A stretch of 41,733 bases of DNA from Winogradskyella sp. (GTDB lineage Bacteria > Bacteroidota > Bacteroidia > Flavobacteriales > Flavobacteriaceae): NCBI RefSeq assembly GCF_016744625.1, contig NZ_JADGDZ010000024.1, positions 1 through 41,733 of the forward strand, read 5' to 3'. The notes under the pieces were generated by a model that was given only the letters and a program-made list of their open reading frames with translations, was not told where the DNA came from and did no database searches. This document shows, piece by piece, positions 23,001 through 27,689 of the stretch (positions are counted from its first letter, which is position 1; the number at the start of each line of letters is the position of its first letter). Made by a program: the position numbers and the translations under genes.

Positions 23001-24038
23001 ATGAACAACAACAAAAATGTATTTGATAACGTACTTCAACTTATAGGAAGTACACCTCTTATCAAGTTGAACAGAATGACAGCCGAATTTGACGGTGATT
23101 TTTATGCTAAAGTAGAAGCATTTAATCCTGGTCATTCTTCTAAGGACAGAATCGCATTACATATTATTGAAGAAGCAGAGCGTCAAGGTATTTTGACTCC
23201 TGGTGATACTATTATTGAAACTACTTCTGGAAATACTGGTTTTAGTATAGCAATGGTGAGTATCATTAAAGGTTACGAGTGTATTTTAGCCGTAAGTTCT
23301 AAGTCTTCTGCAGATAAAATTGACATGCTAAAGTCTATGGGAGCAAAGGTTTACGTTTGTCCTGCACATGTTAATGCAGATGATCCACGTTCGTATTATC
23401 AAGTTGCAAAGCGTTTACACGAAGAAGTTAAAGGCTCTATTTATATTAATCAGTATTTTAATCAGTTGAATATTGATGCACATTATAATTCTACTGGTCC
23501 AGAAATTTGGGATCAAACCGAAGGGCAAATCACACATTTAGTAGCTTGTAGTGGAACAGGAGGAACAATTTCTGGTATTTCTAAGTATTTGAAAGAGCAA
23601 AACTCTAATGTAAAAGTTATTGGAGTTGATGCTTACGGTTCTGTATTAAAGAAGTATCACGAAACTCGTGAGTTTGACGATAAAGAGATTTATCCATATA
23701 GAATAGAAGGCTTAGGTAAAAACTTAATTCCTTCGGCTACGGATTTTGATTTAATTGATAAGTTCGTAAAAGTTACAGATGAAGAAAGCGCACATACTGC
23801 AAGAGAAATATCTAATACTGAAGGACTTTTTGTTGGTTACACTAGTGGTGCAGCAATGCAAGCTATAAAGCAACTTAATGCTGAAGGTGAATTTAAGCAT
23901 ACAGACAAAATTGTTGTTGTATTTCCAGATCACGGATCTCGTTATATGAGTAAAGTATATAGTGATAAATGGATGAGCGATCAAGGATTTTTTGATAGCA
24001 AGACAGCTACACCAGCAACTATTGAGTATATAAAATAA
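23001..24038 (+). CDS. PLP-dependent cysteine synthase / cystathionine beta-synthase-like enzyme; cysteate synthase possible
   Basis: A 345-residue fold-type II PLP enzyme. The PLP lysine is Lys48 in [10 protein letters not shown], the TSGNTG loop (75-80) binds the amino acid, and GTGGT (near 188) holds the phosphate. The C-terminal half ([35 protein letters not shown]) is closer to the catalytic core of cystathionine beta-synthase than to CysK, but there is no heme or CBS regulatory domain. Reaction is beta-replacement on serine, O-acetylserine or O-phosphoserine. Because an alpha-oxoamine synthase follows, cysteate made with sulfite is a plausible product (inference). A terminator separates the two. 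The start ATG fits the motif positions. Confidence 0.9.
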
Positions 24039-24057
24039 AAATATTTTAAGTATATAT

Positions 24058-24089
24058 ACCTATCATAGGCAACTGTGATAGGTTTTTTT
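24058..24089 (+). terminator. Intrinsic terminator after the cysteine-synthase-like gene
   Basis: ACCTATCA and TGATAGGT form an 8-bp stem around 10 nt, followed by seven T. Confidence 0.85.
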
Positions 24090-24149
24090 ATGTTCAAAAC
24101 TTAGTTAATACTTAGATTAAATAAATTATGCGGTCATAATATTATTAAT

Positions 24150-24157
24150 TAATTTTG
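24150..24157 (+). promoter_or_regulatory. -7 box TAATTTTG before the alpha-oxoamine synthase
   Basis: Exact TAnnTTTG about 90 nt before the start codon, giving a fairly long leader. The -33 part is not clear. Confidence 0.4.
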
Positions 24158-24248
24158 CAGATACTAACAAAATTAAATTAACTAAAGTTAATGGTGTTTA
24201 TATACTGGCTTAAAAGTTTATAGATATCGATTAATAGCAACTTAGCGC

Positions 24249-25508
24249 ATGAAGGATTTATTTGAAAAGATTTATAGAGATAAAGGACCACTTGGTAAAT
24301 GGGCTGCTCAGGCTGAAGGTTATTTTGTGTTTCCTAAGCTAGAAGGCGAAATTTCTAATAGAATGAAATTTCAAGGTAAAGATGTTATCACTTGGAGTAT
24401 CAATGATTATCTAGGCTTAGCAAATCACCCAGAGGTTAGAAAAGTAGATGCTCAAGCAGCTGCAGATTACGGTTCTGCATACCCAATGGGAGCACGTATG
24501 ATGTCTGGTCATACAGAATTACATGAACAATTGCAAAATGAGTTAGCTGAATTTGTTAGTAAAGAAGCTGCATATTTACTAAATTTTGGTTACCAAGGTA
24601 TGGTGTCTACTGTAGATGCTTTAGTTGGTAAAGATGATATTATTGTTTACGATGTAGATTCTCACGCTTGTATTATTGATGGTGTGCGCTTACATATGGG
24701 AAAACGCTTTACCTATAAGCATAACGATATAGAAAGTTTAGAGAAAAATCTTGAACGTGCTACGAAAATGGCAGAACAAACTGGAGGTGGAATCTTAGTG
24801 ATTTCTGAGGGTGTGTTTGGTATGAGAGGAGAGCAAGGAAGACTTAAAGAAATTGTCGCTCTTAAAGAAAAATTCAATTTCAGGTTATTTGTAGATGATG
24901 CACATGGATTTGGTACTTTGGGTGCAACAGGAGCTGGAGCAGGTGAAGAGCAAGGAGTGCAAGATGGTATAGATGTTTATTTCGCAACCTTTGCTAAATC
25001 GTTAGCAAGTACAGGAGCTTTTATTGCTGCAGATCAAGAAATTATTGATTACTTAAAATACAACTTGCGTTCTCAAATGTTTGCTAAATCATTGCAAATG
25101 CAATTAGTTGTAGGTGCATTAAAACGTTTAGATATGTTGCGTACAATGCCAGAGCTTAAAAAGAATCTTTGGACTATAGTTGATGCGTTACAATCTGGTT
25201 TAAAAGATCGTGGTTTTGATATTGGAACAACACAAAGTTGTGTAACACCTGTATATTTAAAAGGTAGTATTCCTGAAGCTATGGCTTTGGTTAGAGACTT
25301 GCGAGAAAATTATGGAATCTTCTGTTCTATAGTTGTTTACCCTGTTATACCTAAAGGATTAATTTTATTAAGAATGATTCCTACAGCAACTCATACTTTA
25401 GAGGATGTTAGAGAAACCTTAGATGCATTTGATGCCATTAGAGATAGACTCGAAAATGGAACTTATAAAAGAATGTCTGCAGCTTTAATTGCCGCTATGG
25501 GAGAGTGA
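24249..25508 (+). CDS. Alpha-oxoamine synthase (SPT/KBL/cysteate acyltransferase group)
   Basis: A 419-residue fold-type I PLP enzyme that condenses an amino acid with a fatty acyl thioester, losing CO2. The PLP lysine is Lys250 in FATFAKSLASTGAF; the ring-stacking His139 is in YDVDSHACIIDG, and Asp216/His219 are in FVDDAHGFGTLG. SLASTGAF rather than KALG-GGG points to the serine palmitoyltransferase side of the family, not to biotin (BioF) or glycine C-acetyltransferase. Flavobacterium and Alistipes enzymes of this group use cysteate and make the sulfonolipid precursor 3-ketocapnine; others use serine. A cysteine-synthase-like gene upstream and a GNAT gene convergently downstream support a lipid role. 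Confidence 0.88.
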   Translation: MKDLFEKIYRDKGPLGKWAAQAEGYFVFPKLEGEISNRMKFQGKDVITWSINDYLGLANHPEVRKVDAQAAADYGSAYPMGARMMSGHTELHEQLQNELAEFVSKEAAYLLNFGYQGMVSTVDALVGKDDIIVYDVDSHACIIDGVRLHMGKRFTYKHNDIESLEKNLERATKMAEQTGGGILVISEGVFGMRGEQGRLKEIVALKEKFNFRLFVDDAHGFGTLGATGAGAGEEQGVQDGIDVYFATFAKSLASTGAFIAADQEIIDYLKYNLRSQMFAKSLQMQLVVGALKRLDMLRTMPELKKNLWTIVDALQSGLKDRGFDIGTTQSCVTPVYLKGSIPEAMALVRDLRENYGIFCSIVVYPVIPKGLILLRMIPTATHTLEDVRETLDAFDAIRDRLENGTYKRMSAALIAAMGE

Positions 25509-25531
25509 TTTTCTAAAAATTTATAAAATAT

Positions 25532-25557
25532 AAAGCCACTGAAAAGTGGCTTTTTTT
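25532..25557. terminator. Bidirectional terminator between convergent genes
   Basis: AAAGCCACT-GAAA-AGTGGCTTT followed by a T-run on plus. On minus, TTTATATTTTA follows. It ends right at the stop of the GNAT-like gene. Confidence 0.88.
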
Positions 25558-26677
25558 ATGCAATAGATTTTTTAAACGTACAACGTCTCTTATGAGTAAC
25601 GGGTTTAAAGTTTTTCCAAAGTTTTTGAATGGCTTCATTATCATCTAATTCTGGACCTCTAACGCAAAGCTCAATATCTTTGGCATTGAATGTTTGCCAA
25701 AATTCTTCAAAAATTATAGCAGTAACACCTTTGTTTTGGTATTCTGGTAATACACCAATAAGGTAAAAAGTTACAGTTTTGGCCTTCTTTTTAGCTTTTA
25801 ATAGATGCATAAATCCAAAAGGAAAAAGTTTGCCATTCATTTTTTGTAAAGCTTTAGCATATGATGGAGTTACAATTCCGAAGCCTACTAATTTGTCATC
25901 TTTGTCTAATACGAATTTGACATATTCAGGATTTAAAAAACCAATAAATTTTTTCTTGAAGTATTCGCGCTGTTCTTGGTTGATTTCTACAAAAGAGGAT
26001 AGGACAGAATGTGATTTTGAAAACACATCAAACATCTCATCTGCATAATCCATGATATCTTTATTATTTGTGAAATTAAGCGCTCTAAGCTGGTAGCGCT
26101 TTTTAACCATAGTCTGAACACGTGTAAAGAATTCTTGGAGAATATTCTTAAACTCCATTTTATTCTCAGAGTACGTTGTGCCAACAGCATAACCTAATGC
26201 TTTAAAATGCTCAGCATAATATGGATGATTATGCCACGTAATCATGCTTCCTATTTCATCAAAGCCTTCTGTTAAAACACCAACTTTATCTAGATTAGAA
26301 AACCCTACAGGACCTTCAACATAATCTAAATCTTTTTCTTTTCCTATTTTGTGGACTTTTTCAAGTAGTAACCGAGTCACTTCAACATCATCAATTACAT
26401 CAAACCAACCAAAACGCATTTTCTTTTCGTTTTGCCCATTCACTTCTAACCAATTGATAATTGTAGCAACACGACCAACTATTTCATTACTTTTATAAGC
26501 CAAGAAATAACGTGCCTCAGCATCTTTAAAAACGGGATTAACATCCTTATCTAAAGTTCTTACTTCTTCAGCTATGATAGGTGGTACCCAAGATGATGAC
26601 CCTTTATAGAGTTTAAAAGGAAACTTAACGAATGCTTTTAAGTCTTTCTTAGATGTGATTTCTCTAATTGTAATCAT
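25556..26677 (-). CDS. GNAT-like acyltransferase, 373 aa
   Basis: Begins MITIREITSKKDLKAFVKFPFKLYKGSSSWVPPI, followed by NPVFKDAEARYFLAYKSNEIVGRVATIIN and DYVEGPVGFSNLDKVGVLTEGFDEI, then HPYYAEHFKALGY. The C-terminal part has the GNAT acyl-thioester loop VLPEYQNKGVTAII and ends GPELDDNEAIQKLWKNF...HKRRCTFKK. This layout resembles bacterial proteins annotated as GNAT N-acyltransferases, a superfamily that also includes the bacterial ceramide synthase bCerS. An N-acylating step for a sphingoid or capnoid base is therefore possible, supported by the alpha-oxoamine synthase next door; this is inference. No membrane segment is visible. The beta-barrel gene lies 20 nt upstream on the same strand. 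Confidence 0.75.
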   Translation of the reverse strand: MITIREITSKKDLKAFVKFPFKLYKGSSSWVPPIIAEEVRTLDKDVNPVFKDAEARYFLAYKSNEIVGRVATIINWLEVNGQNEKKMRFGWFDVIDDVEVTRLLLEKVHKIGKEKDLDYVEGPVGFSNLDKVGVLTEGFDEIGSMITWHNHPYYAEHFKALGYAVGTTYSENKMEFKNILQEFFTRVQTMVKKRYQLRALNFTNNKDIMDYADEMFDVFSKSHSVLSSFVEINQEQREYFKKKFIGFLNPEYVKFVLDKDDKLVGFGIVTPSYAKALQKMNGKLFPFGFMHLLKAKKKAKTVTFYLIGVLPEYQNKGVTAIIFEEFWQTFNAKDIELCVRGPELDDNEAIQKLWKNFKPVTHKRRCTFKKSIA

Positions 26678-26697: not shown

Positions 26698-27663
26698 TTA
26701 AGAGTCAAAATCATCAGTTCTCTTTTCTTTTTTCTTCTTTTTCTTCTTCTTTTTAAAATTTCCATCATTACCATTGCCATTATCAATTTTCTTGTCTTTA
26801 TGAAAATCTAAGCGATATGAAGCACCAAAAGCGATATTAAACACTGAAGGTGTGTCTTTTGTATTGAAGCCAATATTAGCATCTAACTGAAAATCTGGCG
26901 TCCATAAATATGCACCACCAAATCTAAAAATATTATCTGCATAAAAATCACTATTGATTCCTTGTGCTTCCCCAAAAATGACCCATTGTGGTGTAAAAGA
27001 ATGTGTTAAAGTAAATACATATTGAAATTCTGAAAACTCAGAACCAATTCTATCTTTTATTAAATTCATGACAAATACCCAACCACCATTAAAATTGTTT
27101 TGTGTAGCTACCATAACTTTAGGACTAAAGCCTTCAACATCTGGTGCTGTATATGGATTGCTTTTAGTGTCGAAATTTGCACCGACATATACTGCCACTG
27201 CAGGTATCAATGATTTCCATTGAAACTTCTTATTAGCATGATAACTATATAAGTTTGGTTTTGCTTCTTCTGCATTTTTATAAGGATCATAAACCAAATA
27301 TTTAGCTCCTAAAGTGAAATTTTTAAAATTAGAACGTTTATCTTCTAAAGGAATCGCAGCATTATTAAAAGTAATTTTATCATTTTGGTATTTACCATCA
27401 AGAGACAATTCTAATTGCTCAAATAAAACACCATATCTCAAAGCGAAATCTAATCCAAAACCTGAAACTTCGTAATTTAGTGGGACATGTTCTTCTTTAA
27501 CTGTAAATGCACCAGCTTCAAATTGAACAATACCTGTTCCAACTGAAAATGCACTTTTAGAAACACCAGGACGATTAGAGTTAATTACCTCTGTGTATTG
27601 TGCGTAGGTTGAAGTAAAAGATAATGAAATAAGAAAAACGAAAATTGATTTGAGTACTCGCAT
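26698..27663 (-). CDS. Predicted outer-membrane beta-barrel with poly-lysine tail
   Basis: A 321-residue exported protein. The ATG at 27663 is preferred over the TTG at 27684, because the latter overlaps the TATATTTG promoter box; MRVLKSIFVFLISLSFTSTYAQ is then a good signal peptide. The mature part shows repeated amphipathic strands (FGLDFALRYGVLFEQLELSLDGKY, NFTLGAKYLVYD, FAFGASYRLDF-like endings) and resembles transporter-type barrels of the 'meta-pathway of phenol degradation' group. After the last strand comes GNGNDGNFKKKKKKKKKEKRTDDFDS, a polycationic tail facing the periplasm. Substrate unknown. The GNAT-like gene starts 20 nt after it, so they may be cotranscribed. Confidence 0.8.
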   Translation of the reverse strand: MRVLKSIFVFLISLSFTSTYAQYTEVINSNRPGVSKSAFSVGTGIVQFEAGAFTVKEEHVPLNYEVSGFGLDFALRYGVLFEQLELSLDGKYQNDKITFNNAAIPLEDKRSNFKNFTLGAKYLVYDPYKNAEEAKPNLYSYHANKKFQWKSLIPAVAVYVGANFDTKSNPYTAPDVEGFSPKVMVATQNNFNGGWVFVMNLIKDRIGSEFSEFQYVFTLTHSFTPQWVIFGEAQGINSDFYADNIFRFGGAYLWTPDFQLDANIGFNTKDTPSVFNIAFGASYRLDFHKDKKIDNGNGNDGNFKKKKKKKKKEKRTDDFDS

Positions 27664-27681
27664 TAGATTTTGGTTTAAATT

Positions 27682-27689
27682 CAAATATA
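27682..27689 (-). promoter_or_regulatory. -7 box TATATTTG of the beta-barrel gene
   Basis: Exact TAnnTTTG on minus, leading to a leader of about 13 nt before ATG 27663. This decides the start over the upstream TTG. Confidence 0.55.

Follow-up and report, generated by a model that had tools for sequence, protein, structure and literature searches.

A stretch of 41,733 nucleotides from Winogradskyella sp. (contig NZ_JADGDZ010000024.1, hereafter the window) carries, one after the other, a gene for a predicted cysteate synthase (capA), a gene for the enzyme predicted to condense cysteate with an acyl chain (capB) and, from position 25556, a gene for a tandem-GNAT acyltransferase (Table 1). With a probability of roughly two in three, they are regarded here as a sulfonolipid locus of the Flavobacteriaceae, comprising CapA, CapB and a GNAT-type N-acyltransferase, with the reductase encoded elsewhere. 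In gliding Bacteroidota, sulfonolipids rank among the major lipids of the outer membrane; the immune-active sulfobacins belong to them, as does the rosette-inducing factor of Algoriphagus. The wider proposition, namely that one tandem-GNAT family adds the second acyl chain to both sphingolipids and sulfonolipids in Bacteroidota, the 25556 protein being the missing sulfonolipid N-acyltransferase, is also favoured, if with slightly less assurance. The first two genes are ordinary for the family, and the 25556 gene is a good candidate for the N-acylation step. An earlier note had singled out the three adjoining open reading frames (ORFs), and all of them were recovered where it had placed them, with the enzyme classes it had described.

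In the proposed pathway, CapA would convert phosphoserine and sulfite into cysteate, and CapB would join cysteate to an acyl thioester to yield 3-ketocapnine. The GNAT protein would transfer a second, often 3-hydroxylated, acyl chain, probably from an acyl-acyl carrier protein (ACP), to the amino group of capnine or 3-ketocapnine, while the ketone would be reduced by a short-chain dehydrogenase of the CapC/KCR type encoded elsewhere. The CapA and CapB assignments draw on named, characterised families, and the reactions would be those of the literature; the GNAT step is likely, on the grounds of family, phylogeny and elimination, its substrate being presumed from these. One paper lays out a four-step sulfonolipid path in which the first three enzymes are assigned and none is named, in the text consulted, for the last step (PMC11211663). 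Along the same line, the literature excerpts searched name a cysteate synthase, a condensing enzyme and a ketoreductase, and a gene for the sulfonolipid N-acyltransferase is named neither in them nor in the titles and opening lines of abstracts that were screened.

Judged by its sequence, the 25556 protein is a member of the bacterial ceramide synthase (CC_1154/YghO) family, in which it is placed via YghO of Escherichia coli. A search of a plasmid collection returned YghO at E 8e-28 (25.1% identity, query residues 1-372), and the pairwise alignment gives 25.9% identity over 379 columns. For dihydroceramide synthesis, yghO and Caulobacter CC_1154 are listed side by side as the acyltransferase gene (PMC9386255). 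In Bacteroides, BF9343_4218 has served as a CerS reference (PMC10865984). On a plasmid of E. coli PN43 (L320:1346-9125), a ceramide-type set unites yghO with an oxoamine synthase gene and with genes for an ACP, an epimerase and a fatty acyl-AMP ligase, and next to it stand two genes annotated as lptF and lptG. General family models say little about the 25556 protein: it matches Pfam PF00583 weakly (25.8 bits, cut-off 20.7), and matches neither any NCBIfam family, the GlsB and OlsF models included, nor PF13444. Its AlphaFold model (mean pLDDT 90.3, from 53 sequences) matches tandem-GNAT structures, and a fold search with it retrieved tandem GNATs at about 10% identity, which offer no clue to the substrate.

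Phylogeny points in the same direction. In an IQ-TREE reconstruction of 103 sequences, rooted on the most distant members, the 65-tip clade containing the 25556 protein joins YghO with support 100. Within it, a 38-tip subclade (support 81) holds the 25556 protein and sequences from CapB-carrying genomes only, and an adjoining 18-tip group (support 94; both groups together, 82) includes a protein from an operon for serine palmitoyltransferase (SPT), at locus L095. Since the 64 capB-adjacent sequences had been thinned to 12, the 25556 protein among them, the tip counts are not frequencies.

The known genomic context of the family is that of long-chain-base N-acylation. A draw of 247 genomes across the phylum yielded eight with an SPT above the NCBIfam cut-off; in six of them a GNAT relative lies directly downstream of SPT, and in five a CerR-type epimerase comes next. 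At locus L095 the relative is 37-38% identical to the 25556 protein over nearly the whole length and overlaps SPT by 4 bp, CerR starting 44 bp further on. In the two remaining genomes the family member is located away from SPT (525 bits in G230, 516 bits in G238) and groups with a Bacteroides finegoldii protein. A looser tally of SPT, 232 of 247 genomes at E 1e-100, was dropped, for it includes Kbl enzymes (the Kbl of the window's own genome reaches 5.5e-104).

The content of the window's own genome narrows the choice of substrate. The 25556 protein is the one CC_1154/YghO-family member found there, and CapB the only SPT-type synthase. A search with the CapB protein matched three oxoamine synthases and no SPT: CapB itself, a Kbl that clears the cut-off of its model (698 against 493 bits) and a BioF-like protein that stays under its own (328 against 426 bits). 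Nor was a CerR-type reductase found in this genome, the best match to a profile built from 11 SPT-locus sequences reaching 74 bits; the same profile scores 304-491 bits in seven of the eight SPT genomes and only 93 bits in the eighth (G214), five of the seven having contributed to the profile and two, G230 (304 bits) and G238 (309 bits), not. As neither SPT nor CerR was found, the 25556 protein is called here a member of the family and not a ceramide synthase.

The partner genes are known enzymes. The 23001 protein passes the NCBIfam model for the cysteate synthase CapA (NF053679 CysteaSynCapA) over its full length, with 652.3 bits against a cut-off of 600; it has the PALP fold (Pfam PF00291, 266 bits), and falls below the cut-off of the cystathionine beta-synthase model (389 against 510 bits). 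Its assignment as CapA, an established enzyme and not a new one, is thus supported, in agreement with the predicted formation of cysteate by the first gene. The 24249 protein is an alpha-oxoamine synthase containing the motif FAKSLASTGAF. It scores 705 bits against PDB 28eh, a named cysteate-C-fatty acyltransferase, and 575 bits against the cysteate acyltransferase SulA (7u7h), compared with 241 bits for SPT (3a2b), 194 for Kbl (1fc4) and 148 for BioF (5vnx). In the alignment, its K250 corresponds to the pyridoxal phosphate (PLP) lysine K251 of SulA, and its K280 to SulA K281, a position occupied by alanine in SPT 3a2b; both lysines are kept in all 144 aligned CapB ORFs. A lysine of the K281 type has been proposed as a mark that may tell SulA from SPT (PMC9304779). 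Together, the scores and the SulA lysine support the assignment to CapB/SulA, a known enzyme that forms a known pair with CapA, and with it the idea that the second gene makes the capnoid base. The reductase had been expected elsewhere in the genome, and none indeed lies in the window. Two CapB-like genes in other genomes (G042:C3:296962-298194 and G092:C6:44003-45235) each have one in-frame stop inside the matched stretch.

Table 1. Features at and around the capA-capB locus of the window (positions are those of the window)
Feature	Position	Strand	Details
capA, predicted cysteate synthase (PLP, cystathionine-synthase fold)	23001-24038	+	345 aa; NF053679 652 bits; PDB 9k2p 501 bits
Terminator-like hairpin 3' of capA	24058-24083	+	11 pairs + T tail; pattern match only
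capB / sulA, predicted cysteate-C-fatty acyltransferase (3-ketocapnine synthase)	24249-25508	+	419 aa; PDB 28eh 705 bits; K250, K280
Two-way terminator-like hairpin, capB/GNAT gap	25532-25553	both	pattern match only
Tandem-GNAT acyltransferase, CC_1154/YghO family; proposed sulfonolipid N-acyltransferase	25556-26677	-	373 aa
Phenol_MetA_deg family protein; synteny-block companion, no role assigned	26698-27684	-	PF13557 128 bits

The distribution of the two genes has been surveyed at three taxonomic levels. Across the 247 genomes of the phylum, a GNAT relative occurs in 237 (E 1e-5) and CapB in 89 (E 1e-80). In four of these, belonging to family f12 (G001, G006, G011, G016), there is neither CapB at E 1e-80 nor a match to the SPT model at E 1e-100, and no GNAT family member, G016 having only a 54-bit partial one. 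In the Flavobacteriaceae (179 genomes; thresholds 1e-120 and 1e-20), 168 genomes have both CapB and GNAT, eight have CapB only, none has GNAT only and three have neither; a profile search found GNAT in none of the 11 GNAT-negative genomes. For these counts Fisher p is 1.8e-4, which is weak evidence for the reason given below. In the wider class, 25 of the 28 CapB-positive genomes have a full-length GNAT member of at least 180 bits, two have a partial one (58 and 72 bits) and one has none.

Many of these class-level members are distant ones, a group set by score (about 180-235 bits). They are present in 22 of the 28 CapB-positive genomes, in 15 as the sole member and in seven together with a closer one, and in none of the three CapB-negative, SPT-positive genomes of the class. 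Their loci were returned for some genomes only (L303-L310, L312-L317), and of the 14 that entered the tree one (G178, L314) branches apart from the rest. The distant members may be the counterpart of the 25556 gene in those families.

Within the family, capB lies in a well-conserved neighbourhood, and the placing of the three genes side by side is no accident there. Among the named loci, which are the best 80 matches and the basis of all counts out of 80, the genes lying no more than three genes from capB include that for CapA at 79, for a prolyl oligopeptidase at 76, for YbaB at 66, for the GNAT protein at 54 and for a homologue of the 26698 protein at 52. Anywhere in the flank, GNAT is present at 55 of the 80, always on the opposite strand to capB (55/55) and at a median gap of 60 bp, some of the 25 others ending soon after capB. 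At 48 of these 55 loci, the 26698 homologue shares the strand of GNAT and is the ORF next to it, as in the window, where the 26698 gene itself lies directly upstream of the GNAT gene at a gap of 20 bp. At four loci of genus g2 (L138-L141), capA and the peptidase gene no longer adjoin capB, GNAT being still one or two genes off. Outside the family, 40 capB loci from elsewhere in the class and phylum were compared; capA is within three genes of capB at four of them and GNAT at none. The claim that the three genes are conserved together therefore stands in part: capA and capB are nearly always joined within the family, and GNAT accompanies them at roughly two in three named loci, partly as a matter of general synteny, and the linkage scarcely extends beyond the family. 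Given that GNAT belongs to a family-wide synteny block, its adjacency to capB adds only modest support, and adjacency as proof of its role is ruled out, the peptidase and YbaB being as constant and GNAT being near capB at none of the 40 loci outside the family.

In a genus-mate (G226), CapB is 96% identical to that of the window and GNAT only 63%, the GNAT of another genus reaching 82%. Behind this pattern may lie either a rapid evolution of the GNAT gene or its exchange.

Several findings weigh against the proposed role of the GNAT protein. Its gene is convergent to capB, and, together with the two-way terminator-like stem after capB, this rules out a three-gene operon (capA and capB share a strand, capA lying 210 bp upstream). 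Terminator-like sites number four in the window, compared with 2.7 (standard deviation 2.1) in shuffled sequences. A protein with no relation to lipids, the prolyl oligopeptidase, is a steadier neighbour of capB than GNAT is, and the lack of GNAT near capB at all 40 loci outside the family is to be counted on the same side. So are the CapB-positive genomes lacking GNAT, namely eight of 176 in the family and, as regards a full-length member, three of 28 in the class. The co-absence statistic is weak evidence, since all three genomes that lack both genes are divergent, the 26698 homologue in them being 35% or 31% identical or not found. GNAT relatives also occur in CapB-negative genomes at sites not beside SPT, as well as on a plasmid from Chloroflexota and in Vescimonas, so that the GNAT family as a whole is not bound to a single substrate.

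GNAT was searched for by profile in 17 named genomes, 15 of them picked for having capB with no GNAT nearby (their completeness was not given); it was found in 11 of the 17, and in nine of the 15, and not found in Mesonia, Gramella, Salegentibacter, Gillisia, Psychroflexus and one Aquimarina metagenome-assembled genome. In Gramella, Salegentibacter, Mesonia and Gillisia, the 26698 homologue comes straight after capA-capB, as though GNAT alone had been excised; loci in which capA-capB is kept and GNAT is missing before this homologue are L172, L179, L193, L200, L264, L265, L267, L268 and L269. Together with Psychroflexus, these capAB-positive genera constitute real counter-evidence. The GNAT-less genera probably form a single clade. 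Leeuwenhoekiella polynyae presents a different case, for it has no GNAT beside capB but retains one elsewhere in the genome. For its congener L. parthenopeia, the presence of sulfobacin A, which is an N-acylated sulfonolipid, has been reported (PMC9859067), and the two observations taken together fit a role in N-acylation.

These findings lend themselves to another explanation, in which capA and capB make sulfonolipid, some other enzyme N-acylates capnine, and the GNAT protein is a mere synteny neighbour acting on another amine. The apparently separate transcription units, the block synteny with unrelated genes and the missing linkage outside the family would be expected under it, as would the capAB-positive genera lacking GNAT and the family members found away from both CapB and SPT. 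It nevertheless has to contend with the known context of the GNAT family, which is the N-acylation of long-chain bases, and with CapB being the only long-chain-base synthase found in the genome; it is therefore held to be rather unlikely. Family, phylogeny and genome content give good grounds for the claim that the third gene performs the N-acylation, yet the gene is to be treated as a candidate only.

It is very improbable that capnine is acylated instead by an N-acyltransferase of the OlsF/GlsB type (PF13444), as in ornithine and glycine lipids. The genome does encode one such protein, a 610-residue OlsF-like fusion scoring 409 bits (OlsF cut-off 620), but this single fused copy is explained by ornithine lipids; fjoh_0833 has been described as a bifunctional acyltransferase for ornithine lipids, fjoh_2419 being treated as the sulfonolipid gene (PMC12045153). 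As to ordinary sphingolipid synthesis, the option left standing by the earlier note, with SPT as second gene and ceramide synthase as third, the family of the third gene and the oxoamine synthase fold of the second speak for it, but it is scarcely credible given that the 24249 protein falls far short of the SPT model (NF047600, 297.6 bits against a cut-off of 640), carries the SulA lysine and is encoded beside a cysteate synthase gene, that the other synthases of the genome are a Kbl and a BioF-like protein, and that CerR was not found.

Returning to the GNAT protein as the candidate sulfonolipid N-acyltransferase, three of its residues offer a lead as to the substrate. K86, K131 and K241 are basic in sequences from CapB genomes (n=31) and mostly not so in a comparison set of 28 sequences, SPT-adjacent or from Bacteroidales. 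That they are specific for the sulfonate is a lead only, because the CapB-genome set comes largely from one family.

Members of the GNAT family have also been seen in other surroundings. At loci L109:8066-12946 and L089:7925-12289, one lies beside genes for a FabA-type dehydratase and a ketoacyl synthase. The former also has a GT2 gene and a short-chain dehydrogenase/reductase (SDR) gene whose ORF overlaps GNAT, and a CapB-like gene shares the strand at a distance of about 7 kb; in locus L093, as in L089 and L109, GNAT stands beside FabA-type, ketoacyl-synthase and SDR genes. These loci may represent another lipid cluster.

Should the proposal hold, the capAB-positive, GNAT-less Gramella, Salegentibacter, Mesonia, Gillisia and Psychroflexus would be expected to make free capnine or to use a replacement enzyme. 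A single-gene candidate beside a locus studied in the laboratory makes the N-acylation step directly testable, and the natural losses of GNAT provide a second, independent test.

To sum up in terms of known systems, among the closest is the pathway to capnine described for Capnocytophaga ochracea and for Ornithobacterium (CapA and CapB, with CapC), whose CapA and CapB belong to the same families as those of the window (PMC10191378, PMC12927429); in C. ochracea the two have consecutive accession numbers (PMC12927429). As far as these excerpts describe it, this pathway ends at capnine, N-acylation being mentioned without a gene (PMC10191378, PMC12927429), and its CapC is not in the window. With SulA, the cysteate acyl-ACP transferase of Alistipes finegoldii (PMC9304779, PDB 7u7h), the CapB of the window shares both the PLP lysine and the SulA-specific lysine; Alistipes differs in that its cysteate is said to come from an archaeal-type synthase and not from CapA (PMC10191378). 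OlsF and GlsB likewise N-acylate an amino group in aminolipids of Bacteroidota, but belong to a separate GNAT family. As for the bacterial ceramide synthases (bCerS/CerS; Caulobacter CC_1154 = CCNA_01212, and E. coli YghO), the window departs from them in that its genome has no detected SPT or CerR, in the linkage of GNAT to CapB on the opposite strand, and in an identity to YghO of about 26%. The likeness lies in a length of about 370 residues, in the tandem GNAT fold, in the full-length homology of the 25556 protein to YghO, and in the SPT-GNAT-CerR operons in which its relatives sit.

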